Of a DNA stretch of 64,000 nucleotides, positions 9,376 to 62,805 are shown one piece after another; within the stretch, counting starts at the first letter, position 1; every line of letters starts with the position of its first letter. The position numbers were made by a program, and so were the translations under genes. This DNA is from Bacteroidales bacterium (GTDB lineage: Bacteria; Bacteroidota; Bacteroidia; Bacteroidales; UBA932): the NCBI GenBank assembly GCA_017544265.1, contig JAFYEM010000030.1, positions 87,402 through 151,401 of the forward strand. Reading direction: 5' to 3'. Below the pieces are notes generated by a model, which made no database searches, was not told the origin of the DNA, and worked only from the letters and a program-made list of their open reading frames with translations.

Positions 9376-10566
9376 ATGTATAAAAGGGCTCAATACGACA
9401 TCCTTGCTAAAAGACTGGCAGAGAAACGACGCTTTATCCAAGTAATCATGGGGCCGCGTCAGGTAGGCAAATCAACTCTTATGAAGCAGGTAGTGAAAAA
9501 CCAGGACATCCCGTACCTGTTCTATACTGCGGATGCGGTACCTGTAACAAATTTCGAGTGGATCAGCGACTGCTGGAATGCCGCCCGAACCAAGATGAAG
9601 GTAGAGAATCTGCCGGAGATTATACTTATTATCGATGAAATCCAGAAGATTATCGGCTGGAGCGAGATCGTGAAGAAGGAATGGGATGATGACAGCTTCA
9701 ACGACATCCCCTTGAAAGTCATCCTGCTGGGTTCTTCGCGCGTAATGCTGGACAAAGGGCTGGCCGACAGCCTCCAAGGCCGGTTTGAACGCATAATTCT
9801 CTCCCACTGGTCCTTCGCTGAAATGAGGGATGCCTTCGGCTTCTCCCTGGAACAGTTCATCTATTACGGAGCCTATCCTGGCGCGGCAGAACTGATCGAT
9901 AATCCGGAACGCTGGATTAACTATATCAGCGGTTCCATCGTAGACGCAACCATTAATAAAGACATTCTTGTTAACGAGAAAATTACAAAACCAGCACTAC
10001 TGCGGCAGACTTTCGAGTTGTCGTCGGCCTATTCCGGACAAGAACTTTCGCTGACGAAGATGATTGGCCAGATGACTGATGCGGGCAACACGACAACAAT
10101 TACCGGCTACCTGAACCTTCTGTCTCAGGCCGGACTAGTCTGCGGCCTGAACAAGTACGCCGTCGATATGGCCAGAAAGAAGAATTCCATTCCGAAGCAC
10201 CAGGTGTACAACAATGCCCTGAAAACGCTCTACTGTGAAAAGCCCTTTGAGGAGGCTATTCTGGACCGGAAGCTGTGGGGGAGGCTGTTCGAGTCGGCCA
10301 TTGGCGCCCATATCTTAAGCTATGCTTACGCAGGCGAATACAAGGTATACTATTGGCGGACGAACCCGGGCTGCGAAGTGGATTATGTTCTAGAAAAAAA
10401 GGGCAAACTGGTCGCCATAGAGGTAAAGAGCAACGATGATGACTGGAACGACGGCCTCTCGGAATTCAAGGAGACTTTCAAGCCCTATCTTTCCATCATT
10501 GTGGGCCGAAGCGGCATACCGGCCGAGGATTTCCTCTCGACGGATCCTGTGTATTTATTCAAATAG
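9376..10566 (+). CDS. AAA ATPase with DUF4143 domain
   Basis: 396 aa from the ATG at 9376; an in-frame GTG at 9370 is less likely. Walker A GPRQVGKST lies near residues 24-32 and Walker B ILIIDEIQ near 78-85. The middle part has the DUF4143-type helical segment (YGAYPGAAE...WINYISGSIVDATINKDIL), and the C-terminus carries a PD-(D/E)XK-like core (EVDYVLEKKGKLVAIEVKS). Members are common accessory ATPases of unclear function, often proposed as mobile, toxin- or defence-related cargo. It lies inside the tRNA-Ser island, is AT-richer than the flanking operons, and has its own operator-like promoter. Family assignment is firm; the biological role is unknown. Confidence 0.9.
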   Translation: MYKRAQYDILAKRLAEKRRFIQVIMGPRQVGKSTLMKQVVKNQDIPYLFYTADAVPVTNFEWISDCWNAARTKMKVENLPEIILIIDEIQKIIGWSEIVKKEWDDDSFNDIPLKVILLGSSRVMLDKGLADSLQGRFERIILSHWSFAEMRDAFGFSLEQFIYYGAYPGAAELIDNPERWINYISGSIVDATINKDILVNEKITKPALLRQTFELSSAYSGQELSLTKMIGQMTDAGNTTTITGYLNLLSQAGLVCGLNKYAVDMARKKNSIPKHQVYNNALKTLYCEKPFEEAILDRKLWGRLFESAIGAHILSYAYAGEYKVYYWRTNPGCEVDYVLEKKGKLVAIEVKSNDDDWNDGLSEFKETFKPYLSIIVGRSGIPAEDFLSTDPVYLFK

Positions 10567-21070: not shown

Positions 21071-21205
21071 CTACCACTCCTCCTCCGTTTCGACAAATTC
21101 AGGAATAGTAGCTGAGGCCAGAAAATGCCGCTCCACCTCAACGGGGCGGATTCTCAGCGCGGGAGCCGTATAGGCTTTCCGCAGTTCAGTTGATTTCTTT
21201 TCCAT
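21071..21205 (-). CDS. 44-aa microprotein (Y-T-x-P family) before a GLUG lipoprotein
   Basis: The frame is open from ATG 21205 to TAG 21071, one base before the GLUG lipoprotein start. The product begins MEKKSTELRKAYTAP, contains HFLASATIPEF and ends VETEEEW. It shares the pattern Y[TK][AS]P, then an acidic VE-x-E, then an AS pair and an acidic tail with the microproteins at 39807-39956 and 62647-62805, although overall identity is low. No signal peptide, no obvious hydrophobic helix. Similar very short unannotated proteins occur beside fimbrillin-type genes in Bacteroidales (my recollection of the family). Function unknown. Confidence 0.65.
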   Translation of the reverse strand: MEKKSTELRKAYTAPALRIRPVEVERHFLASATIPEFVETEEEW

Positions 21206-30396: not shown

Positions 30397-33300
30397 TTAG
30401 AATTTCAGGTTGATGGACGCGCCGAACTGTGCGGGCGAAGGCATCTGCAAAATCTCAAATCCGGGAATGACGGCGCTGCCGCGCATAGTCACGCCTTCCG
30501 GATCCCAGGCGGGGAAGTCAGTCCAGCACCAGAGGTTGTTTCCATAGACGGAAATGCTGGCGCCGCTGAGGAACTTGGTCTTGGCAAGCAGTTTCTTGGG
30601 GAAGGAGTACTCCAGGCGGATTTCCCTGAGCTTGAGGAACTGCGTACTCACGAAATGAGCCTCGGCATTTGTGTTCTCATACTTGTTGTGGTAGTATGTC
30701 GCAATGTTCTCGGGCTTTATTTCGCTGGTGTTGATGACATAGTTGCCGTCTGCGGTGAGGCGCACGCCCACGGGGACCAGACCGCCTTCACGTCCGGCGA
30801 GGGTGTTGGTACCCTTGCCCCTGTAATTCAGCACCCAGTTGGTGTAGGAGTACACATGGCCTCCGACCTGGCCGTCAAAGCCGATGTAGAAGCTCAGGCC
30901 CTTCCATTTGAGGGTGGTGTTGAAACCGCCTTTCCAGTCGGGAGCGCAGTCGCCGAGATACTGGAGGTCGGTGGTGGTCTGCGGACGGTTTTCATCGTCC
31001 AGTACAAGCATTCCGGACACATCGACCATCTTGCCGGTGGCGTCTATGGCCGTGGCGCCTTCGGGCGCGCGTACATAGCCCTTGCCGTACATGGCGGTCA
31101 GCGAGCCGCCCTCATAGGCGGTCATATAGGCATGTGATGAATACTGGGCGACAATCCATGAGTCTATGCCTTCGCCCAGCGAGACGACGGTGTTGCGGTT
31201 TAGGGTGAAGTTTGCCCCCACTTTCCACTGCAGGTCGCGGGTCTTGATGATGGTGCCGCTGGCAGAGGCCTCTACGCCGCGGTTGCGGATGGAACCGGCG
31301 TTGACAAAGACGCTCCTTACGCCGTTGGCGACGGAAACGGGCATCTGCGAAATCAGGTCCTTGGTGACCGAATCATAAAACGCCACGTCCATGGCGAAGC
31401 GGTTCTTGAACATCTTCAGCTCCAGACCGACCTCCCAGGAGGAGACTATTTCCGGACGAAGGTCGGAGTTGGCCTTGTTCACAGGAATCGAGACGGTTCC
31501 CGGGAAACCGGTGCCGAGCAGATAGTCCTCCACACGGTAGGGGGCAGTGTCGTTACCGACCTGGGCCCAGGAAGCGCGAATTTTCAGAAGGTTCATCAGA
31601 CCGTTCGTGCGCCCGAATTCGAAGAGGTCGTTAAGGGCGACGCTGGCTGAAACGGAAGGATAGAAGAATGAACGGTGCTTTGCGCTCAGGGTGCTGGACC
31701 AGTCGTTACGGCCTGTCGCCTCGAGGAAGACAGCGTTTTTCCATGAGAAGGAAATCATTCCGTAGAGGGAATTTGTCTGGCGGGCGTAGCTGTTGTTCGA
31801 AGTCAGCGGCTCGTAGGCTGTGTTCACCATGGAATAGACAGCCGGCAGTTTGAGGGCGCTCGCAGTCTGGGTGTGGTTGCTGTAGCTGCGATAGACAATG
31901 CTGCCGCCGGCGTTCGCAGTGAGCTCGAAGTCAGGCCCGAAGCGGGTGTTGTACTTCAGCAGGAAGTCGCCGCTGAACTGCTTGGAGTCAATGTCCTGTT
32001 CGCGGTACCAGCCATTCGGCTTGGCCTGGGTCGATGTGGCCTGGCGCTGGGTTCGGAAATCGGAAGTTATATCCAGACCGCCGCGCACCGTCAGGTCGAG
32101 TCCCTTGACAATGTCCGCCTTGAGGGTGACGTTGCCATAGACACGGTCCTTCTTCTGGTTGTTGATACACTGGTTCGCCACGAAATAGGCATTGTTCTTG
32201 CCGCCGGAGAGGGACGCATCCTGCTTATAGGGGACGTCTTCCCTCCAGTAATCCTTCACCCAGTCCATGTTGATGTTGGGGGCATAGCACCAGATACTGT
32301 ACATAATCGAAGTGGAGCCGTAACCGGACGAGGTCGGGATGTTGTCCTGCTTAGTATGCTTGTAATTGACAGAACTGTCCAGTTTCAGCCAGGAAGCGAG
32401 CCGGTTGGAAGTCTTGACTGAAACAAAGTGGGACATGCTCGGGGAATTCGGGACGATGCCCTGGACGGTATTGTTGGTGTAGGACAGGCGGATGCTGTTT
32501 TCCTTGTTGATTTTTCCGGACATCACAAGAGAGTTGGTGAAGGTCAGGCCGGTCTTGAAATAATCCTTGAACCAGTCGCCATAGCTGATGAACGGGGTCG
32601 CGTCGCGGGTAAACTCACCGAATTCGTCGATGTGGCCGCCAATTCCCTTGGCCTTGTTGTAGTACTGGTAGTAAAGGGTGCCGTCCATCCTGGGGCCCCA
32701 GGACTCCATTCCCACGGTGGTGGTCATGTCGGGCTCCGGGTTGAGTCCTACCGCATCGTCACCCTCGCCGCTGCGCAGATAGTAATAGTACGGCTGCGTG
32801 GCGTTGCCCTGGCCATAGACATACTGCAGGTCCGGGGATGAGAGAAGCACGTCCGCGGCGAAACTGGACTTGAAGTTGACGCTGAACACCGCATCCTGCG
32901 ACTCCGCCGACTTGGTGGTGATGATGATGGCGCCGTTGGCGGCCTGGGAACCGTAGAGCGCCGTAGCGGCAGCACCCTTCAGCACGGTCACGCTCTCGAT
33001 GTTTTCCGGGTCTATGTCGGCGATGCCGTTACCATAGTCGATGGCGAAGGACGAGCCCTCGCCGCCGGCGTCGGAGGCCGTGGAAGTGTTGTACATCGGG
33101 ACGCCGTCCACCACGAAGAGGGCGGTGTTGTTCTCCAGGCTGGCGGAGGATTCGCCGCGGACCGTGACGCGCATGGAGCCGTTGGGGGCGCTGGTGCGGT
33201 CTATGTTAAGGCCGGCGACCTGGCCAGTCATGCCGTTGAGCCAGTTGCCGGTGGTTCCGCTGTTGGCGAATTTCTCGCTTTCGACTTTCTGGACGGAATA

Positions 33301-33735: not shown

Positions 33736-36270
33736 CTACCAGGAAACCCTGCGGGAATAGCTGTTTCCGAAGCGGTCGGTGACGGAGACCGTGCCTGATG
33801 TGGGGATCGCCGAAGCCGGAGCCCGGAAGATTGTGACAAGGGCGCCGTCCGCAGAGTAAATTTCCTTGGGCCTGTAGCCGTCAAGGGCCGCCAGGCTGCC
33901 GCCGGACTTGTTGGCATAAGTTTTATACCAGCTGCGGAACTCTGTATCGGCAAGGTCATAGTTGTAGTCCAGTCCGGCGTTGGTTTCCTGATTGTCCGGA
34001 GAGGTAATCCTTGTCATGGTCACCGGTGTACCTCCGTCGGGGGTCCATACCGGGAGTTCCCATTTCTCATCCCAGAGGAAGACATTGGCATAGACATATC
34101 CGCCGGCCGAATAGGCGCCGCGGGGATATGCGTGCAACTGGTAGTTTTCGTCAAGGGTGCCGCTGCCGTCTTTCATGACTGCCACGCCGCTGGAGTTGTA
34201 GTCCCAGTCGCGCCACTGGTAAGCCGGCGCTCCGGCGGAGCAATAGCCGGTCGTGACGCCCTGGAAAGCACCCCTCTGACGGGTTACAGGATGGAATTTC
34301 CATGTGATTTCACCATTGTCTATCTTCACGATGGTGAAGCCGCGCGGCGTTCCGGCCGCCAGATATTCATTGGTCCAGAGTTCGCCGGTAGAGCGTGCGA
34401 GGGTATGCACCTCGACATGCTTGTGACGGTGGGTTGAAGGATAGATATAGTTCAATCCGATATGGGTGTGACCCGCCCAGGCGTGCACCTCGTCGTATTT
34501 GTCCAGAAGATCGCCGTAACCGTAGTTGCCGTCGTTAATGCTGCGGGTTCCGCCGTGGAAGGCGGAATTGGTGCGCTCACTGCCCTTGAGAAGTTTGAAC
34601 ATGGGCGAATGGGCGCAAATCATCAGTTTAGTGGTGGTGGGGATGAAGGCGAGGTCGCCCTGCAGCCATTCCCATATCTGGTCGGTAAGTCCCTGGTCAT
34701 AGCCGGTAAGACTCCCGCCGTTATCTTTCATAATCAAGTTGTCCAGCACCACGAAAAGTATTCCGCCTATGTTGAATGAGAAATTCCTGGGGCCATAATA
34801 CGATTCGAAGGGCTCTGCGCCGGCATCGTCGTCGGCTGCATCGGGGTCGTTGTCGTGGTTGCCGATAACGTTGTAGGTCGGATACTCCAGCGTCGCCAGG
34901 GCACTGTTGTACTGGGCGTAAAGGCTCATGTCCTCATGGACTATGTCTCCGAGGCAGATGCCATAGACCTCACGGCCGGAAACAGCGGGAGAGCGGGACA
35001 CGTCATAGAGTTCCTGGTACAGGTCCGCGCACGCATCGAGCGACTTGTACGCGATTTTGTCGAGAGTCCAATTGGACTTGCGGGGCTGGGGGTCCGCCGT
35101 CATGAGGATGGTGCAGTGATCCGGGTTGTCCTCCGCAGTCAGCACGAAATCGCCGAAGTCATAGACACCGCCCTGGGGGGTGATGTCCGACTTTGCCTTG
35201 TAGAAGCGGGGGATGCCGCCGGAGACTGCAGGCTTGTAGCCCGACGGGGTGCTCACATTCACGAACTTGACATTCGCGAGGGTGCTTTCAATATAGAAGG
35301 ATCCGTCGAACATTGTCTTAACGCTCTTGGTGCCGTCGGAGACTACGACTCCTTCCATAGGGGCGCCGGTGCTGTCCACGACGCGGCCGGTCACATTGTA
35401 TCCGTCAGGAGGAAGAACCTCTTCCTGGACATCCTCAATCGAGAATTCCGTCGCGATGGAGGAAGGCACGAAGGTGAATTCCGGCATCAGGGCGAGCTTC
35501 CCGGGGGTCATGTCTATGGACGAGGTACGGACCTTGGTCATGGTGCGGGCTTTCTCATCCTTGAGAACCACCTGGAAGCCTGAAGCGTAAGTCCGGGCGG
35601 GAACGACGAAGTAGATGTCCAGCACATCGGTCTCCGACAGGTTCTGGTCCACGTTCAGGATAAGGCTGAGACCCTCCCCGTCCGGAGCCTCGCCGGACAG
35701 GGAATGGTTCTCATAGTCAATAGTGAAATCTCCTGCTATCTGCTCCCCTGCCCTGCCGGTCAGTGTCGCGCTGGCAAGGCGCGAGGCGCTGACGGAGGCA
35801 TCCTTCTTGACTCGGAGCTGCACAATTGCACCGAGGTGGGAAATGCTGAGGGAACCGCCGGAAGAAGCCTGATAGCCGGCCATGGGTATGGTGTTGGTGG
35901 CGAAACCGCCATCGGCCCAGGTCTGGGTATCAGGGAGGGTAATGCTGTCCTCGTCTTTATAGAACGAAGCAGGATACAGGATTTTGTAGGGGGTATTCAA
36001 CACAGCTGCGAAGCTGAAGTTGGCGCTGGACGCGGCATCGCCGATTCCGGAAAGAGGATTCGACGCTACGCCGTTCAGGCACAGCTGGTCACCGTTGCTC
36101 CAGTACACATGGCGCACCCCCTGGTCGGGGGCGCCCATGTGTGTCTTGGAGTCGGCAATGGAAACTTCAAGGGTAGTAAACTCCCCGTCCTGCTCTTCAA
36201 ACCCGGGTTCCCGGCTGCAGGAGACCAGTGCCAAAAGCGCACAAGCCGAAGCTACAATATATTGACGCAT
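33736..36270 (-). CDS. Fimbrillin-like/calcineurin-like phosphoesterase lipoprotein
   Basis: 844 aa, lipobox ALVSC (Cys18). Residues about 30-270 are fimbrillin-like (HVYWSNGDQLCLNG, TPYKILYPASFY, FVVPARTYASGFQVVLKD). A carboxypeptidase-regulatory-like domain spans 290-345. The phosphoesterase motifs are DPQ (393-395), GDIVHED (441-447), GNHD (470-473), AHSP (553-556) and GHTH (600-603); the MetallophosC-like tail ends VSVTDRFGNSYSRRVSW. It is close to the 24077-25717 enzyme with an added N-terminal domain. The upstream GLUG gene stops 63 bp away, and SusC follows directly. Likely a surface phosphodiesterase or phosphatase feeding the SusCD pair. Confidence 0.9.
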   Translation of the reverse strand: MRQYIVASACALLALVSCSREPGFEEQDGEFTTLEVSIADSKTHMGAPDQGVRHVYWSNGDQLCLNGVASNPLSGIGDAASSANFSFAAVLNTPYKILYPASFYKDEDSITLPDTQTWADGGFATNTIPMAGYQASSGGSLSISHLGAIVQLRVKKDASVSASRLASATLTGRAGEQIAGDFTIDYENHSLSGEAPDGEGLSLILNVDQNLSETDVLDIYFVVPARTYASGFQVVLKDEKARTMTKVRTSSIDMTPGKLALMPEFTFVPSSIATEFSIEDVQEEVLPPDGYNVTGRVVDSTGAPMEGVVVSDGTKSVKTMFDGSFYIESTLANVKFVNVSTPSGYKPAVSGGIPRFYKAKSDITPQGGVYDFGDFVLTAEDNPDHCTILMTADPQPRKSNWTLDKIAYKSLDACADLYQELYDVSRSPAVSGREVYGICLGDIVHEDMSLYAQYNSALATLEYPTYNVIGNHDNDPDAADDDAGAEPFESYYGPRNFSFNIGGILFVVLDNLIMKDNGGSLTGYDQGLTDQIWEWLQGDLAFIPTTTKLMICAHSPMFKLLKGSERTNSAFHGGTRSINDGNYGYGDLLDKYDEVHAWAGHTHIGLNYIYPSTHRHKHVEVHTLARSTGELWTNEYLAAGTPRGFTIVKIDNGEITWKFHPVTRQRGAFQGVTTGYCSAGAPAYQWRDWDYNSSGVAVMKDGSGTLDENYQLHAYPRGAYSAGGYVYANVFLWDEKWELPVWTPDGGTPVTMTRITSPDNQETNAGLDYNYDLADTEFRSWYKTYANKSGGSLAALDGYRPKEIYSADGALVTIFRAPASAIPTSGTVSVTDRFGNSYSRRVSW

Positions 36271-36307: not shown

Positions 36308-36349
36308 TTGGTTTAAAGGTCAGCTACGTTGGTTTAAAGGTCCGCTACG
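36308..36349 (-). repeat. 21-bp tandem duplication over a stop codon
   Basis: 36308-36328 and 36329-36349 differ at one base. The unit encodes the last codons (NVADL) and stop of the GLUG lipoprotein, so a second copy lies untranslated after the stop. Confidence 0.85.
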
Positions 36350-39300
36350 TTGCCGCCGCCGCTGAAGGTGCCGGTACCGGCGATGGCGTAGGTTGTCTTA
36401 TAATGGCAGTTCTGAATGGTCGTTCCGTCGACAGAAGTTCCCACGATACTTCCTGCAGTAATGGCATTACCGCTCTTGGTGATGGATGTTACGTAGCTTG
36501 AGCAGCCGTCAATGACAGTAGTACCAGTAATAATCTTTCCAACAATTCCGCCGCCCGTCTTGATTTGCGAACTATTGATAGTGGTTCCGCTGAAGGTACA
36601 GTCCGTTACTGTAGAGTTAGTGACAATGCCGGCGATACCACCACAGTTATAACCAGACTGGGCACGGCCACTGACGGTTCCGTCCATCTCTATGGATACA
36701 GTACAGTCTGAAAGGTCAGAATAAATGCCGGAGCCGAGAATGCCGCCGATGGATCCGCGACGGGAACGTACACATGTCGCATCGCCGGAAACCGTGCATT
36801 CTTCGATGCTGATTCGGCTACTTTCTGTTCCATAAGTGATACCGGCAATTCCGCCGGTAAGAGTACCATCATAAGCATTGGAATCTCGGTTTGACCAGTG
36901 GTCATTATAAAGATCGGCGCCACTATGGGAACAGTTTGTAATGGAGGATGTACCGTTAAGGTAGCCAATTACACCGCCTGCTATGACGGTATTCGCTTGG
37001 TTAAGGTTAGCGGATCCCTGTCCACCGTGAACATATCCGGTATTGTGGCAGTTGTCAATATCCAGGCTCTTGCCGTAACCTATAATGCCTCCAAAGTAGA
37101 TATAGTGGTATTCAACGCTACCCGCTGTGCCCTGTACGTCAGCCCGGAAATAGACCTCTCCGGAGTTCGCGTTGTTGTTGACTCCTGCTGTTTCTCCAGC
37201 ATTGATATAGCCAGCAACACCGCCGAGGCGCACATTGTTGAGCAGTGCTCCGGTCTGCTGGCGGTAGTGGACATAGCCCTCATTGGTGCTGCCAGTAACC
37301 GCTGATGTACTAATTCCCACGATGCCACCCACATTGTAACCTCCGGTTGATGCGACATTAGGAAGGTTATTCAGGAAGTACACTTCACCGGTATTATTTG
37401 CACCGCTGATTGCTGCTGTCGCTCTTCCGGCAATGCCGCCTATACAGAAAGCGCCTGTATTATTAGTATTGTCCCCACCTTCGGTTGTTTTCTCGTATTT
37501 AACACTTCCGCTGTTAGACACGTTGCTCACAGCAGCTGTAGTCTTACCTACTATACCGCCAAGATTGAAGCCATCAGCACTGAATACAGATGGTGTGTAG
37601 TTCTGCAGAATATCTCCGGAATTGGTGATATTCTTTCCGGTTCCACCGTCAATGGCTTTGGAATTGAGCCCGATAACACCACCAATATAAGTATATACAG
37701 CATTATTGTTGTTCTCGGTGCGGGATAGAGATATATCACCAGCATTGTGCAAATCTGATACGTTGGCAGTGGAACGGTTTTCAGCAATCACACCGCCGAT
37801 ATGGGGATACCTGGCCGAGTACGAACCGGCTCCAGCTGTCATCATTTTTAATGACCCGACATCGCTATTTGAGCAGGATGAAACAGTGCCATAGTTACGT
37901 CCCACAACACCGCCCAAATACTGGAAATAGGTATTGCTCCTGTGGGTCACAGCAGCGCTATTAGTACAGCCTGTGACGGTGCCGCCACTCTGGTTGATTC
38001 CCACGATGCCTCCGGTACTGGTTCTCCGTCCATAGTTGTTGTTGTTGTCCTTTTTGAAAAGGGTTACAAAAATACTTGCTTCGTTCTGGCATGCGGATAC
38101 AGTTCCTGCAACATTCTCACCCACTATTCCACCGACTGCAGAGCAGTAGGCCACTATAGTCTTATTGACGATGTGCCCCAATGAACCGGAGTATGCTCCC
38201 GCGACCGTTTCATGATCGGATGTAGTATTGCAAGAAGATACTGTACCTGCTGACAACTGCCCCACAATACCGCCTATGATAAGATAAGGGTTGTCCTGAT
38301 CTGTTCCTTCGGTTTCCTGCGCTTCATTTGAAATGGCTCCTTTGAAGAATGAATCGCTTATTGAACCGGACGCGTTGGTAATTTCGCCGGCGAGGCCGCC
38401 AATGATTACTTTTGCAGAACTGCTATAAACTGCAGGTGTGGAAATGAGTCCCGAATACTCGCAGCCGTTTTCAATGCTTCCCACAACAATACGGCCGACC
38501 AAGCCGCCGAGGGCGGTGACTGATGTCACGTCGCTTACTTCGGCAAGAGAGACGTCCGCCGCAACTTTCACATTATCAAGCACTCCTCTGTGATAGCCCA
38601 CAATGGCTCCCTTTTCAAAATTACCAGATTTGGGGTTGGTGAAAGTGAATGAGCAGGTATTGTCGAGAGTCAGGTCCTTAATTGTAGAACTGGAAGTTGT
38701 ACCATTGAACATAACAACAGTGGACTCAAGGCCGCTAATTGTCTTGCCGTTGCCGTTGAAAATTCCGTCAAAGCGGTTGGTATCGCCGCTTGTGCCGATA
38801 CCGCCAGTTGCATTGAACGCTGCGGAAGATGTGGCGTCGAAGGCGATGTCCTGGGTGACGGTGGCAATGAGGTTGCTTCCGAGAGCCGCGTATTCCTTGT
38901 TGTTATAGGCAGTTGCGAAGGCGATAAGTTCCTCTGCGTTGCTGATTTCCACGCCGAGCTCGGTGCCGGTAGGAACGAATTCAATTGCGGGATAGGAATA
39001 CAGGTGGCCGGCCTCAAAGGTCTTGGACGCAGTTATGCTCTTGGTCATGATGTGGCCGTTGACGTCCTGGATGATGATGTCGAAACCGCTTGCATACTGA
39101 CGCGCGGGAACGATGAGATAATAGTCCACGGCATCGGTCGTCGAGGTCGCAAGGTTCTTGTTCACGCGGACCTCATGCTCAAGGTCGGTTGCGGCGGCAG
39201 CGGCGGTAAGGGCCGGAGTGCCGGTGTAGGTGATTTCGAGATTGCCGCTCACCTTCTCACCATTGCGGCCTTTGAAGCGCACGCAGGCGATATTGTCCAC

Positions 39301-39804
39301 GTCGGGAGTCGCCGCGGCGGAACGGAGTACTGAAATCTTCACCATAGCGCAAAGGTGCGACAGCGACAAATTCGAGCCGTCGGTGCTGTAGCCTGCCAGA
39401 GGGAGCATGTTGTCAGCGATTCCGCCGGCCTTGTAGCTCTGCACGGACGGGAAATTGATATGCGATGCGTCCACATAGGCAGATGCGGGATACAGCACAT
39501 TGTAAGGGGTGCTGAGCACTGCATTGAAAGTGAAACTGGCGGAAGCGGTTCCGGCGGCGATGTTCTCAAGAGCCTCGGAGCTGGTGCCATTCACGGCAAT
39601 CTGGTCTCCGTTGCTCCAGAAAACTTTACGCTTACCGTTCTCGGGATCACCCAGGTTCGTTTTCAAATCATCGGAAATGCCGACGACAAGGACAGTCTTG
39701 GCATTGGAAGGATTATCGACAGTGTTTTCGATTTCCTGCGCTTCCTTTGCGCAACCTGCCAGCAATCCAATTGCCGCAAGTAAAAGATAGTAACGAGTCT
39801 TCAT
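36334..39804 (-). CDS. Fimbrillin-like N-terminus plus GLUG repeat lipoprotein, first large gene of the cluster
   Basis: 1156 aa from the ATG giving MKTRYYLLL; lipobox LLAGC (Cys18). The fimbrillin-like domain lies at about 30-285 (KVFWSNGDQIAVNG, TPYNVLYPASAY, IVPARQYASGFDIIIQD). The GTELGVEISNAEELIAFATAYNNKEY segment opens a long GLUG-like array to about 1140, closing with NCHYKTTYAI...GGGNVADL. It is the closest paralogue of the 17860-21069 protein, and its N-terminal domain resembles that of the phosphoesterase next door. A 49-aa microprotein gene ends 2 bp before its start, and a promoter within inverted repeats lies further upstream. Expected surface adhesin or scaffold; expression may be phase variable. 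Confidence 0.87.
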   Translation of the reverse strand: MKTRYYLLLAAIGLLAGCAKEAQEIENTVDNPSNAKTVLVVGISDDLKTNLGDPENGKRKVFWSNGDQIAVNGTSSEALENIAAGTASASFTFNAVLSTPYNVLYPASAYVDASHINFPSVQSYKAGGIADNMLPLAGYSTDGSNLSLSHLCAMVKISVLRSAAATPDVDNIACVRFKGRNGEKVSGNLEITYTGTPALTAAAAATDLEHEVRVNKNLATSTTDAVDYYLIVPARQYASGFDIIIQDVNGHIMTKSITASKTFEAGHLYSYPAIEFVPTGTELGVEISNAEELIAFATAYNNKEYAALGSNLIATVTQDIAFDATSSAAFNATGGIGTSGDTNRFDGIFNGNGKTISGLESTVVMFNGTTSSSTIKDLTLDNTCSFTFTNPKSGNFEKGAIVGYHRGVLDNVKVAADVSLAEVSDVTSVTALGGLVGRIVVGSIENGCEYSGLISTPAVYSSSAKVIIGGLAGEITNASGSISDSFFKGAISNEAQETEGTDQDNPYLIIGGIVGQLSAGTVSSCNTTSDHETVAGAYSGSLGHIVNKTIVAYCSAVGGIVGENVAGTVSACQNEASIFVTLFKKDNNNNYGRRTSTGGIVGINQSGGTVTGCTNSAAVTHRSNTYFQYLGGVVGRNYGTVSSCSNSDVGSLKMMTAGAGSYSARYPHIGGVIAENRSTANVSDLHNAGDISLSRTENNNNAVYTYIGGVIGLNSKAIDGGTGKNITNSGDILQNYTPSVFSADGFNLGGIVGKTTAAVSNVSNSGSVKYEKTTEGGDNTNNTGAFCIGGIAGRATAAISGANNTGEVYFLNNLPNVASTGGYNVGGIVGISTSAVTGSTNEGYVHYRQQTGALLNNVRLGGVAGYINAGETAGVNNNANSGEVYFRADVQGTAGSVEYHYIYFGGIIGYGKSLDIDNCHNTGYVHGGQGSANLNQANTVIAGGVIGYLNGTSSITNCSHSGADLYNDHWSNRDSNAYDGTLTGGIAGITYGTESSRISIEECTVSGDATCVRSRRGSIGGILGSGIYSDLSDCTVSIEMDGTVSGRAQSGYNCGGIAGIVTNSTVTDCTFSGTTINSSQIKTGGGIVGKIITGTTVIDGCSSYVTSITKSGNAITAGSIVGTSVDGTTIQNCHYKTTYAIAGTGTFSGGGNVADL

Positions 39805-39806
39805 GA

Positions 39807-39956
39807 TTAGTCCTCCCATTGTTCTTCCTCAATTGTGACATCCGGAATCGTGTAGCTGGCGTTGAGGAAATGATTTTCCTGCTCCACGAAGAATAATTCT
39901 GTGAAGGGAGATGTGTACGACATCCCTTCCTTTCTTTGTTTTGAGTCAGTTCTCAT
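39807..39956 (-). CDS. 49-aa microprotein (Y-T-x-P family), first gene of the cluster
   Basis: Open from ATG 39956 to TAA 39807, ending two bases before the GLUG lipoprotein start. The product contains MSYTSPFTELFFVEQ, then HFLNASYTIPD and the acidic end TIEEEQWED. It aligns with the 44-aa protein at 21071-21205: YT[SA]P, a VE-x-E core, HFL-x-AS-x-TIP, and an EEE-W tail. Both stand immediately before fimbrillin/GLUG lipoprotein genes, which argues that they are translated and functional. The predicted promoter leaves a leader of about 90 nt. No signal peptide is evident. The role is unknown: a regulatory leader peptide, a chaperone-like cap, or a precursor peptide are all possible. Confidence 0.65.
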   Translation of the reverse strand: MRTDSKQRKEGMSYTSPFTELFFVEQENHFLNASYTIPDVTIEEEQWED

Positions 39957-39982
39957 TTAGTAAATTATTAAATTGATTTTTT

Positions 39983-40168
39983 TTCGGTACTAAGGTCGGT
40001 TAAAGTTCACATTTAGTTTTAGTGTCTATACTTTTTTGCCTATAAAGTTCACAAAGTTATGAATTTCAGCGCTTAAATGCAAATTTTTCCGAAGATCCCC
40101 CACGATTCCATACTTGTATGGACTCCTGTCGCTACAACTAAAGACACTTCTATGTCCTTAGTACCGAA
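39983..40168. repeat. Inverted-repeat-flanked promoter segment (possible invertible element)
   Basis: TTCGGTACTAAGG at 39983-39995 and its exact reverse complement at 40156-40168 enclose 160 bp that contain the only good promoter for the downstream cluster. Size and layout resemble phase-variable promoters of Bacteroides surface genes. No invertase gene lies nearby; global invertases acting in trans are known in the group. Confidence 0.5.
40052..40083 (-). promoter_or_regulatory. Promoter of the microprotein/GLUG/phosphoesterase cluster
   Basis: On the minus strand: TTTG (40083-40080), 20-bp spacer, TAACTTTG (40059-40052). It points at the 49-aa microprotein gene with a leader of about 90 nt and lies inside the 13-bp inverted repeats. 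Confidence 0.7.
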
Positions 40169-40220
40169 CTAAAGAAAAACAGTAAAGTTGCAACAAACTG
40201 ATAGTTAGCGCAAAAAATCA

Positions 40221-40255
40221 AAAGTGCCTTCCGGATATTGTCCAGAAGGCACTTT
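40221..40255 (-). terminator. Rho-independent terminator of the Rpn pseudogene
   Basis: Perfect 11-bp stem AAAGTGCCTTC/GAAGGCACTTT around a 13-nt loop; on the minus strand it is followed by TTTTGATTTTTT. Confidence 0.85.
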
Positions 40256-40317
40256 GGTAATTATGTAAAAAACGGTTGGCTATAGCCGCCGCGAAGGGCG
40301 ATGGCAGCTGGCAGGGC

Positions 40318-41309
40318 TCAGCTATTGATCAGCGCCTTTACCGCATCTTCGGAAAGGCCGGTAACTTTAGAAATAAAACCGACTTCTGCGCCAAACGAAA
40401 GCAGAGATCTGGCAATAGATAATCTCTCGTCAATTCTTCCCTCCTCACGGCCTTCTTCACGGCCCTCCTCGCGACCTTTCGCAAGGCTTTCCGCCCGGGC
40501 CTTGTCTATCTGCTCCGACCAATAGGTTGATATGTCTGCTTCCGTCATCATGGCTTTATCGTATTGCGCCACCTGGTTTGCGCTCCAATTCGCAATCTCG
40601 GCGGCCTGAAACAAATCGTCAAAAAATTCGCCCCTCAGCTCCGAAGGCTGCTCCTTCAGCTCATTGATATACTTCAGAGAAAACGCCAGCTTCTCCAGCA
40701 TCGTTCGGCATCTCTCCGGATGCTCAGCACCGTAATTCATGCGGTCCAGCTCTAGGAACACGAACTCCAGTGAATCCGTCATTCGCTCACCGGCCGTCGC
40801 CTCCATCAGCCAATACCTGCACACAAGGCCGTCCTCCAGCTTCACAGACTCCTTGTGATCTATGCTGAATTTATTATCCCAACGATGTGCACCGCGTCAA
40901 GGCGGTACTTGATGCGGGGCAGATACTTCAACTTCAGCTTTTTCTTCTTCGCCTTCGCCTCCCGCAGACGAGTCACAATCTGCTCCCGGATAGGATAAGT
41001 CGAATAATACAGCGTACGGTCACGAAAATCCTCCTGCACATTGTACTGCATCTCTATCAATACATGCTCGCCGCTCTCCGTGACACAGTACACGTCGAAT
41101 ATGCAGTGCCGGTCATCGGACGACTGACCGTGCTTGTCCTTGTTCACAAGCGTGATCCTCGAAATGTGCATCGAGGGAAGAAGATGGTTCATCAGCTTGA
41201 TCAGAAGGCCCTCGTTCTCCTTAGCGGCAAACACCAGCTGGAAAATCTTGTCCCTCCGGATGTCAGCATAGCGAGTCTTTGAATGAGGGGCGTCAATGAA
41301 CTTTGACAT
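40318..41309 (-). pseudogene. Rpn/PD-(D/E)XK nuclease family transposase-like gene, frameshifted
   Basis: Two adjoining frames make one protein. 40860-41309 encodes the N-terminal 149 residues (RYADIRRDKIFQLVFAAKEN, then the nuclease core IFDVYCVTESGEHVLIEMQ), and 40318-40845 the C-terminal part, with helical regions, a charged GREEGREEGREEGR repeat and a closing SLLSFGAEVGFISKVTGLSEDAVKAL. The break is near 40870, where a missing base turns an expected NFSIDH into NSA-stop; restoring one base joins the frames. Rpn-like proteins are recombination-promoting nucleases common in Bacteroidetes. The gene keeps its terminator, so the damage looks recent. Sequencing error is the alternative. Confidence 0.85.
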
Positions 41310-41898
41310 AACTCAAAATATTAAATGGTTATACTGTGATATTTTGAGCGGTGCCGTTGCAAATTTGCGAATATTCCTCCAAAATATCAAGACTCCGGCA
41401 TGGAATCGTGACCACAATAGTATGCAATTATTTTTGGAAAAGCCAATGACTTTGCCCGTCGAACTGCAAAAATACGTGTTGTTGCAAATAATTTAAGTTT
41501 CCGAATGTTTTTGGGACAAAATGTTAGTTTTCTTATCAGCAAAAATTGCCGAATTCGTGACTGCCTACATTATTTGTTATCTCGCGTTGCCGACGACACC
41601 GGCAGCTGGCAGGGTTCCGGGGGGCATAGACACACTATTAAGCCGACGGGGCCATGCCAGATGACGGCGGGCGGTGGAGGGAAATCTCCGCCCGAAATGA
41701 CAGAAAGAAAGCCTTGGTCGAAATTCACCTTGAGGGGAAATCTGCACTGGAGGACGTTACAGTGCTCAAGGTGACGCAAAATTGTCGCACCTTGAGCGGT
41801 AGAAGCCTCTCTATCGGCGTTTTTTGCTCAAGGTGATTTTTCGGTAGCGGGGTGCAACCAGGATGGGGGCTACAGGGAGGAAGGCGGCGGGTGCGGTG
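41310..41898. other. 589-bp repeat-rich intergenic region
   Basis: No credible gene. Upstream of the Rpn gene is a perfect 10-bp inverted repeat CTCAAAATAT/ATATTTTGAG (41312-41321, 41339-41348) that may be an operator. Further on, four CTCAAGGTG motifs alternate in orientation at 41726, 41765, 41788 and 41827; the middle pair forms a strong hairpin (41764-41797). The stretch 41580-41760 is GC-rich and reads like an interspersed repeat rather than protein-coding DNA. Confidence 0.5.
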
Positions 41899-42282
41899 TC
41901 AGTTTTTGCCGATTTCCTCGAAGAAGGAGCTGAGGCCGCCGACTAGTTCCTGAAATTTGACGGACATCTCGGATATGGATTTATTGAACTGTTCCGAGAG
42001 CTTGCTTGCACCGGTTTTCACTACCATTGCACGGTAACGCCCTATGGACTTGGAGATTAGCTCACGGTCGTCCCTGGAGATGTTTTCATACTCGTTTTTA
42101 TAGACTTCCATCAGGGCGTCGAACTGGTCGCTGACTTTGTCCCAGTCTTCTTCGGTGTAGGAAGCTGATTCTTTATCGACCTTATTGACGAATTCTTCAA
42201 ACTGCTGGACAAGGGTGCCGTCGGAGCTTAAAAGCGTAACCAGAGCGACGGCAGCAAGTAAAAAAAGTACAATTTTTTTCAT
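41899..42282 (-). CDS. DUF6565-like exported protein
   Basis: 127 aa. N-terminal signal or anchor MKKIVLFLLAAVALVTLLSS without a lipobox. The rest is helical with EEFVNKVDKESASYTEEDWDKVSDQFDALMEVYKNEY and IGRYRAMVVKTGASKL, resembling small Bacteroidales proteins of the DUF6565 type (family name from memory). Probably periplasmic or membrane-anchored with coiled-coil character. It is separate from its neighbours: a 140-bp gap with a short repeat lies before it. Role unknown. Confidence 0.75.
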   Translation of the reverse strand: MKKIVLFLLAAVALVTLLSSDGTLVQQFEEFVNKVDKESASYTEEDWDKVSDQFDALMEVYKNEYENISRDDRELISKSIGRYRAMVVKTGASKLSEQFNKSISEMSVKFQELVGGLSSFFEEIGKN

Positions 42283-42351
42283 GTCTATAAATTTTTGCCG
42301 CCATCCCTAATACAAATCGCGGGCCGCAGGGCTAAAGTCTACGGCGCAAGA

Positions 42352-42419
42352 GATTTCTCGACTCGCTGCGCTCGCTCAAAATAACAGTGACGCGGCAGCG
42401 CGAAACGACAGGGAAAGAG
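42352..42419. repeat. Short palindromic repeat downstream of the nucleoside hydrolase gene
   Basis: It contains a near-palindrome CTCGACTCGCTGCGCTCGCTC and ends in a GACAGGGAAAGAGC segment that touches the stop codon. The same end segment touches the fprA stop at 13090, so this is an interspersed 3'-flanking repeat. Confidence 0.5.
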
Positions 42420-43781
42420 CTATCGCTGAATCGCCATCAGGCGGATATATTTGAGGACCGTGTCGCTCCAGACTTTGTCGCCGGGGAACTGGTAGCGGGC
42501 ATTTCCAGCGGGGTCCGGGGTGAAGATTGTCTCGCCCCTGGGCGTAAGTTCCACCCAGCCGCGCTCTGAAAGCGAATAGAGTTCGTCACCCTCGACCGCA
42601 TTGATTACCGCGAGCGGGTCCCACATCTTCTGGCCGGTGTCGCAGTTAAGGAACTGATAGATCCACTTGATGGGGTGCGAATCAGTCCAGTCCATGTCCG
42701 CGATGACGGTTTCGGGCCTGTAGTCCAGCGGGTCGCCGACCTCGCCGGGCGAGAAGACAATATCGACCTCCCGGGGCCAGAGTTCGAAGAATTTGAGGGA
42801 GAAGTCTATGGCCTGGGAGAAGTTGTAGTCCGGCTCCACGGCATCGCCGAAAACACCGCCCATAGCATATATGGCGCAGACTTTATTGCGGACCAGTTCC
42901 ACGCCGCTGAGCGGAGAATATTCGTCAGGCCCCGATTCCAGAAGGCGCGCAAGCGTGGTCACGAAGCCTATGGAAGCGATGGTTACGCTGTGGTCCGGCT
43001 GCGAGGCGAGAAGGCGCCGGTAGAGTTTGTAACCCTCCTCGTACTGTGAAGGGTCGGTCACGCTACGGCGGAAAAGCGGCTCCGCATCAGTCGTGCGGGC
43101 GTAGGGAACATTGTGATAGGTAATGAACACATGCGGAAGGTCTATGCCCTTGCGCTCCAGGCCTATGGGAATGTCCGGATAGCCGTAGAAATTGTTCAGC
43201 ACGTCCACTATGTCCGCGTTGGCATTGCCCATGCGGTCCACGACGACGCCGAGCAGCTTGCAGCGCTTCATGTCCATGTAGCGGTAGAGCATCATCAGCG
43301 CGAACAGGTCGTCGGTGGAACTGCCCATGTCGGTGTCAAGGATGACGCGGATGTCCTTCTGCTCGTAATTCGATTTCACTTCTATCTGCTTGGAGGCAAT
43401 CCAGACGCTGTGCTGGCCGTTCGCGCGGGCGAAAGCCACCGCCGCTGCAAGGCTGTCCTCAGGGAAGATGCGGTTGCTGTCGAAATAGTATTTTCCGTTT
43501 TCCGGATTGTACCAGCCGCCTACGAAACCATTGTGCGTCCTTGCGTGCCGGACCACCGCCGGGATGCTCTTCTTGTCGAAACTGTTCTGAGTCGCAGCAT
43601 AGGACACCACAATCCCCTCCTGCGGCTGCCGCATAGTCTTCAGGTCAATGGTAAACCCGTCGGGATACATCTGTCCCATCGCCCATATTGCATTGTACAA
43701 CTCTTTGTCGGAAAGTCTATTCTGCGAAAATGCCGGCAGGGCGCACAGCAGAACCAAGAATGAAATGAACGCTTTTCTCAT
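42420..43781 (-). CDS. Exported nucleoside hydrolase-like protein with extra N-terminal domain
   Basis: 453 aa from the ATG giving MRKAFISF; Sec signal ending in ALPAFSQ. The nucleoside hydrolase domain starts at about 143 with the Ca-binding motif RVILDTDMGSSTDD (DTD...DD at 149-158) and continues through a VTIASIGFVTTLARLLE segment and AIYAMGGVFGDAVEPDYNF. Such enzymes cleave the N-glycosidic bond of ribonucleosides. Residues about 25-135 form an unrelated domain (GFTIDLKTM...GIVVSYAATQNSF...GFVGGWYNPENGKYYFDS) that I cannot name with confidence. Export would fit scavenging of extracellular nucleosides, alongside the window's phosphoesterases. The 43781 start is chosen because the longer frame runs into a 31-bp inverted repeat. 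Confidence 0.85.
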   Translation of the reverse strand: MRKAFISFLVLLCALPAFSQNRLSDKELYNAIWAMGQMYPDGFTIDLKTMRQPQEGIVVSYAATQNSFDKKSIPAVVRHARTHNGFVGGWYNPENGKYYFDSNRIFPEDSLAAAVAFARANGQHSVWIASKQIEVKSNYEQKDIRVILDTDMGSSTDDLFALMMLYRYMDMKRCKLLGVVVDRMGNANADIVDVLNNFYGYPDIPIGLERKGIDLPHVFITYHNVPYARTTDAEPLFRRSVTDPSQYEEGYKLYRRLLASQPDHSVTIASIGFVTTLARLLESGPDEYSPLSGVELVRNKVCAIYAMGGVFGDAVEPDYNFSQAIDFSLKFFELWPREVDIVFSPGEVGDPLDYRPETVIADMDWTDSHPIKWIYQFLNCDTGQKMWDPLAVINAVEGDELYSLSERGWVELTPRGETIFTPDPAGNARYQFPGDKVWSDTVLKYIRLMAIQR

Positions 43782-43800: not shown

Positions 43801-43923
43801 GGTGAAAAAATTACCCGCATCACTTTCATCTAATCGTCGCCCTCCCAACTTTGTCGGGCCCCTCCCACTTATGATGCCGTGGGTGGCACAGGAGATGAAA
43901 GTGATGCAGGTAATTTTTTCACC
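43801..43923. repeat. 31-bp inverted repeats flanking 61 bp (MITE-like)
   Basis: 43801-43831 and 43893-43923 are reverse complements with one mismatch. The element fills the gap between two minus-strand genes; no target-site duplication is clear. It can form a very stable hairpin. Confidence 0.75.
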
Positions 43924-62646: not shown

Positions 62647-62805
62647 CTACTCGGAAATCCATAAATCAATACCTGCGTCCTCCTCCTCAATGGGCTGGAG
62701 AGCGCCTACACTTGCACAGATGCACCATTCCCAGTCCAGGGAATGGATCCTTGCAAAAGGAGCCTTGTACTCCTTTTGAGTTTTTAATTTCAGTGTTTTC
62801 ATCAT
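62647..62805 (-). CDS. 52-aa microprotein of the Y-x-x-P family
   Basis: Open from ATG 62805 (or the next ATG, 62802) to TAG 62647, ending two bases before the giant lipoprotein start. The product contains KEYKAPFARIHSLDWEWCIC, then AS and an acidic stretch PIEEEDAGIDLW. It shares Y[KT][AS]P, a hydrophobic-acidic core, the AS pair and acidic tail plus Trp with the proteins at 21071 and 39807. Position and spacing are the same in all three cases, in front of a fimbrillin-like lipoprotein. Function unknown; two Cys residues are special to this copy. Confidence 0.65.
   Translation of the reverse strand: MMKTLKLKTQKEYKAPFARIHSLDWEWCICASVGALQPIEEEDAGIDLWISE

Follow-up and report, generated by a model that had tools for sequence, protein, structure and literature searches.

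In one defined gut community, the reported median per Bacteroidota genome is 8.5 invertons supported by reads, mostly intergenic and with inverted repeats of about 10 to 40 nt (PMC11892184), and the prior for inversion is therefore not small. Mpi is described as inverting 13 regions in B. fragilis (PMC4747536). As far as PMC8748976 describes them, the invertible promoters of the IP-ARG classes all directly follow an invertase gene. We analyzed a candidate locus within the window, which is the whole 64-kb stretch of DNA under analysis. Here, a Bacteroidota promoter of a microprotein-GLUG lipoprotein operon lies between short inverted repeats (Table 1). We lean towards reading it as an ordinary fixed promoter, with the repeat either coincidental or a relic. 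The sequence itself shows the promoter match and the direction in which it points; that the promoter is active and fixed, we infer.

Table 1. Features of the promoter segment and its surroundings (positions in the window)
Feature	Position	Strand	Remarks
Calcineurin-like phosphoesterase	33736..36270	-	PF16371/PF00149/PF16370; next gene, same direction
GLUG-repeat lipoprotein	36334..39819	-	PF07581
49-aa microprotein ORF	39807..39956	-	shorter start possible at 39923
Left 13-bp arm, TTCGGTACTAAGG	39983..39995	+	~50-57 nt downstream of the predicted transcription start
160-nt spacer	39996..40155	.	portion that inversion would turn
Bacteroidota promoter, TTTG-N20-TAACTTTG	40052..40083	-	consensus match; -33 at 40083-40080, -7 TAACTTTG at 40059-40052
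16-bp palindrome, ATTTCAGCGCTTAAAT	40063-40078		inside promoter spacer; rare in window
Right 13-bp arm, reverse complement of TTCGGTACTAAGG	40156..40168	-	upstream of promoter, ~-110 from the predicted start
Intrinsic-terminator-like stem-loop, 15 pairs	40221..40255	-	3' of the Rpn fragments
Rpn/PDDEXK_2 gene, broken	40318..41309	-	split across two frames, as ORFs 40860-41309 and 40318-40845

An earlier note on this DNA had described perfect 13-bp inverted repeats bounding 160 nt, and both the coordinates and the sequence proved exact. The arms pair perfectly over 13 bp, which falls within the range of roughly 10 to 40 nt given for inverton arms in PMC11892184; a repeat-finding tool stretches them to 18 nt at 89%. 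The spacing between the two 13-bp arms is 173 bp, and the whole element with its arms measures 186 bp. Gapped extension of the arms gave a score of 29, which was matched by 1 of 300 shuffles, with the 13-bp core carrying the score. The outer flanks, judged by eye, read ...TTTTTT on the left and CTAAAG... on the right.

Strict matches to the Bacteroidota promoter consensus number three in the whole window, and the enclosed site is the single one in the cluster. The suggestion that the cluster's only good promoter lies within the repeats was thus upheld, this being the sole strict consensus match there. The promoter was not listed in a scan for E. coli-type promoters. Its boxes are on the minus strand and face both the 49-aa ORF and the GLUG gene, and the present orientation would accordingly be ON toward the two genes, as had been proposed. 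As in invertons, the promoter lies within the segment and faces a gene in one orientation, here the microprotein-GLUG operon. From the promoter boxes, the transcription start is predicted at about 40045 on the minus strand, and the right (upstream) arm falls outside the predicted transcript of the operon.

With a fixed promoter, minus-strand transcription would begin near this position and drive the microprotein-GLUG lipoprotein operon, preceded by an unstructured leader of roughly 90 to 120 nt. The 13-bp inverted repeat would either be a relic or have arisen by coincidence in an intergenic stretch rich in AT, and no inversion would take place. Folding of the operon's leader gave no structure (z 0.82). 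An explanation at the RNA level was rejected, as the leader is unstructured and no Rfam family scored above its gathering threshold in positions 38500-42500; there was one weak mir-17 match, over the stem-loop at 40221-40255. The palindrome ATTTCAGCGCTTAAAT was likewise rejected as a conserved operator, because among 332 genus genomes its 14-bp core pattern was present in 10 and the reversed control in 9 (counts tallied by hand from result rows).

We examined whether the repeat is more than chance. The inverted repeat alone is unremarkable, because shuffled windows and congener loci yield comparable ones. Perfect inverted repeats of at least 13 bp with a spacer of 20 to 400 nt averaged 0.33 per dinucleotide-shuffled window, at least one being present in 25% of 60 shuffles. 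The real window holds two, the second of which is part of a dispersed repeat. Four such repeats, including one in genome G174 that is described below, were found in 45 congener loci (196.6 kb), although this base is somewhat inflated by overlapping loci (e.g., L025 and L050). When the 361-bp intergenic stretch was shuffled, an inverted repeat of this kind arose in 4 of 3000 replicates. Shuffling of five long gaps in the window (2,679 bp; spurious ORFs occupied the remaining gaps) produced one in 2 of 200 replicates, which was counted against coincidence.

The enclosure of a promoter was assessed separately. A survey of 450.6 kb from the own genome gave 14 inverted repeats with spacers of 40 to 400 nt, of which this one alone encloses a promoter; the 450.6 kb comprise the window and 20 hand-chosen stretches, about 24% of the genome and no random sample. 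In shuffles of the flanks around promoters, at least one strict promoter was enclosed in 2 of 100 replicates (33 sites) and at least one relaxed promoter in 10 of 100 (58 sites), the observed number being one. An inverted repeat that encloses a promoter is unusual but not compelling; we regard it as suggestive, not decisive, and the locus was picked out of the whole window. The dispersed material in the window includes an imperfect inverted repeat of about 31 bp with a 61-nt core at 43801-43923. This element was found at 16 places in the genome at E < 1e-19, its own place included (54 blast pieces in total), and is a MITE/REP-like family. Seven of the 14 inverted repeats in the 450.6-kb survey resemble this family by arm sequence.

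The main rival to a fixed promoter, which we hold tentatively as a possible account, is that the element is an inverton. A trans-acting site-specific recombinase would recognize the 13-bp arms and turn the 160-nt segment, the present state being ON and the flipped state OFF. The flipped state would simply be OFF because the promoter would then fire rightward into the stem-loop, which stands between the Rpn fragments and the promoter segment, and antisense to the Rpn remnant. The earlier note had the inverted promoter facing an Rpn pseudogene. The gene is in fact split between two reading frames, but it lies on the minus strand, so that a flipped promoter would enter its 3' end antisense, by way of the stem-loop, and would not drive it.

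The perfect arms, the 160-nt spacer with a strict promoter inside, and the lipoprotein operon downstream argue for an inverton, as do the published repeat lengths and mostly intergenic positions in Bacteroidota (PMC11892184) and the finding that shuffles rarely place such a repeat around a promoter. Potential recombinases are present in the genome (90.53% complete), with four profile matches outside the contig, one for serine recombinases (PF00239) and three for tyrosine recombinases (PF00589), and the serine recombinase locus contains an 11/13 match to the arm, within a SusC gene. However, neither profile had a match on the own contig (C10, 151 kb), and the lone serine recombinase has repeats of its own, which the 13-mer matches at best at 7 of 13 positions. 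The repeat is also unique in the genome. No exact copy of the arm was found elsewhere in it, and three matches with one mismatch each stand alone on three other contigs. The segment is assembled once at full length, and no second orientation was found in the assembly.

Conservation of the repeats, on which the earlier note had set store, was not borne out. Of 400 genus genomes, the own one alone has the exact pair (0 of 399 congeners), and it was found in none of the GTDB genome_contigs scanned (a set that may omit this genome and its closest records) and in none of the viral_contigs; these searches used exact arms and a spacer of 145 to 175 nt, which degenerate relatives would escape. A shared inverted-repeat motif, usual but not strictly defining for invertons, was found neither in the own genome nor in congeners, GTDB contigs, or viral contigs. 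A homology search with the segment matched 5 of 400 genus genomes, namely, the own genome and four with 26 to 49 bp around the promoter, and with a wider 494-bp query the own genome was the sole match among 61. None of these absences, whether of a motif, of a recombinase on the contig, of the repeat in relatives, or of a second orientation, refutes inversion.

We additionally surveyed related operons in the genus. Counting the own genome, 54 of the 400 genus genomes encode relatives of the GLUG protein (E <= 1e-30), and the best is 59% identical. A search of genome_contigs for relatives of the GLUG N terminus gave 81 candidate stretches, none of which was confirmed. The operon survey comprised 22 of 29 fetched loci, those in which a microprotein could be located ahead of the lipoprotein gene; L047 (a fragment with no start) was omitted, L055 (spotted by eye) was added, and L061 and L062 are near-identical. 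When the 500 bp preceding each microprotein were scanned, 20 of the 22 loci had no inverted repeat of at least 11 bp (spacer, 40 to 400), and the 13-bp repeat TTCGGTACTAAGG was present at none of the 22. The missing repeat weighs little, because the relatives are distant (at most 59% identity). L063 has an 11-bp inverted repeat upstream, which was taken as chance. At 4 of the 22 loci, a relaxed promoter match precedes the microprotein by no more than 100 bp. A sense ORF ends within 40 bp upstream at 14 of the 22, indicating that many related loci are probably operon internal.

In genome G174 (L049/L116; G174:C10, contig end 55169), the promoter of a sibling microprotein-GLUG operon is surrounded by an inverted repeat that is perfect over at least 100 bp. 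Its arms span -261 to -161 and -47 to +53 relative to the microprotein start, with a spacer of 114 bp. The -7 box falls within an arm, as does the microprotein start, and the -33 box is in the spacer; the contig terminates within the outer arm. No other copy of the arm was found in the first or last 3 kb of the 18 other G174 contigs or at the other end of G174:C10, and the 13-mer TTCGGTACTAAGG is absent from the arms. The repeat could be a genuine switch whose partner went unbinned, or it could come from a fold-back in the assembly. This sibling locus, with its much longer inverted repeat around the promoter, was counted toward an inverton at the 13-bp locus. It also bears on a wider reading, which we consider doubtful, that the microprotein-GLUG operons of the genus are phase variable through lineage-specific inverted repeats around their promoters. 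The 13-bp repeat class would then be one found in no other genome scanned, and after a flip in G174 the -33 box would serve a second copy, divergent from the first.

Without inversion, the arms could also be the inverted sites of one regulator, whose binding would form a repressive DNA loop around the promoter. The arms do flank the promoter on both sides, 173 bp apart, but the genome has no further copy of the exact site and the arm itself, by eye, is no good palindrome, and we consider such a paired operator very unlikely. A MITE-like miniature transposon that brought in the promoter, with the arms as its terminal repeats, is scarcely credible: the 186-bp size and 13-bp terminal repeats would suit one, but inspection by eye showed no target-site duplication, the element is single copy in the genome, and no copy was found in the 399 other genus genomes, four of which gave the short matches around the promoter only.

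The balance for the fixed promoter was drawn as follows. Counted in its favor were the consensus match, the uniqueness of the inverted repeat, the lack of a recombinase match on the contig, the one assembled orientation, the 20 of 22 relatives without an inverted repeat, the 0.33 repeats expected per shuffled window, and the unstructured leader. Counted against it were the rarity in shuffles of an inverted repeat plus promoter, its standing as the sole promoter-enclosing repeat of 14, and the G174 sibling.

The microprotein belongs to a family of about 37 to 55 aa, encoded directly before or overlapping lipoprotein genes at 22 of 29 genus loci (L047-L073). Further family ORFs in the window have their low ends at 21071 (-) and 62647 (-). 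An alignment of 22 microproteins (2 from the window and 20 from genus loci) has one invariant Y and one invariant P, and the pattern is Yxx P ... S..IP...EEEDW. The conservation of the acidic-W tail is partly by construction, because the search required that tail. The alignment omits L047, L055, L062 (whose peptide equals that of L061), the window ORF at 62647, and the dissimilar window ORF at 10079. The family had no match in Pfam or NCBIfam at E <= 0.1, and a literature search on small protein/GLUG/lipoprotein returned nothing recognizable on it among the matches listed.

In the same genome, a 205-aa serine recombinase is encoded between two divergent SusC/RagA-type genes (L077; G000:C2, ~31675-32100), with inverted repeats at the starts of both genes. 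No TAnnTTTG box was found in this segment. L077 is likely a SusC inversion locus, and it is a more typical inversion candidate than the 13-bp repeat locus. The two are alike in that inverted repeats frame a segment lying upstream of genes for surface proteins. In contrast to the 13-bp locus, L077 has a recombinase inside the segment, longer repeats of a different sequence, and two divergent SusC-type genes.

If the segment does invert, a surface-lipoprotein operon of a Bacteroidota genus would join the phase-variable loci, with a repeat class new to the scanned collections. If the promoter is fixed, as we lean towards, it is an ordinary promoter of little significance. A 13-bp inverted repeat spanning at most 400 nt is expected about once per three shuffled 64-kb windows, and such findings therefore need reads. 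Unlike the B. fragilis Mpi system, the locus has no shared inverted-repeat motif that was found, no recombinase match on its contig, and one orientation seen; unlike the IP-ARG classes, it has no recombinase match nearby. As in those classes, as far as they are described in PMC8748976, a promoter with TTTG and TANNTTTG boxes lies inside inverted repeats. Like the Mpi-flipped capsule promoters of B. fragilis, it is a -33/-7 promoter between short inverted repeats in an intergenic position upstream of a surface-protein operon.
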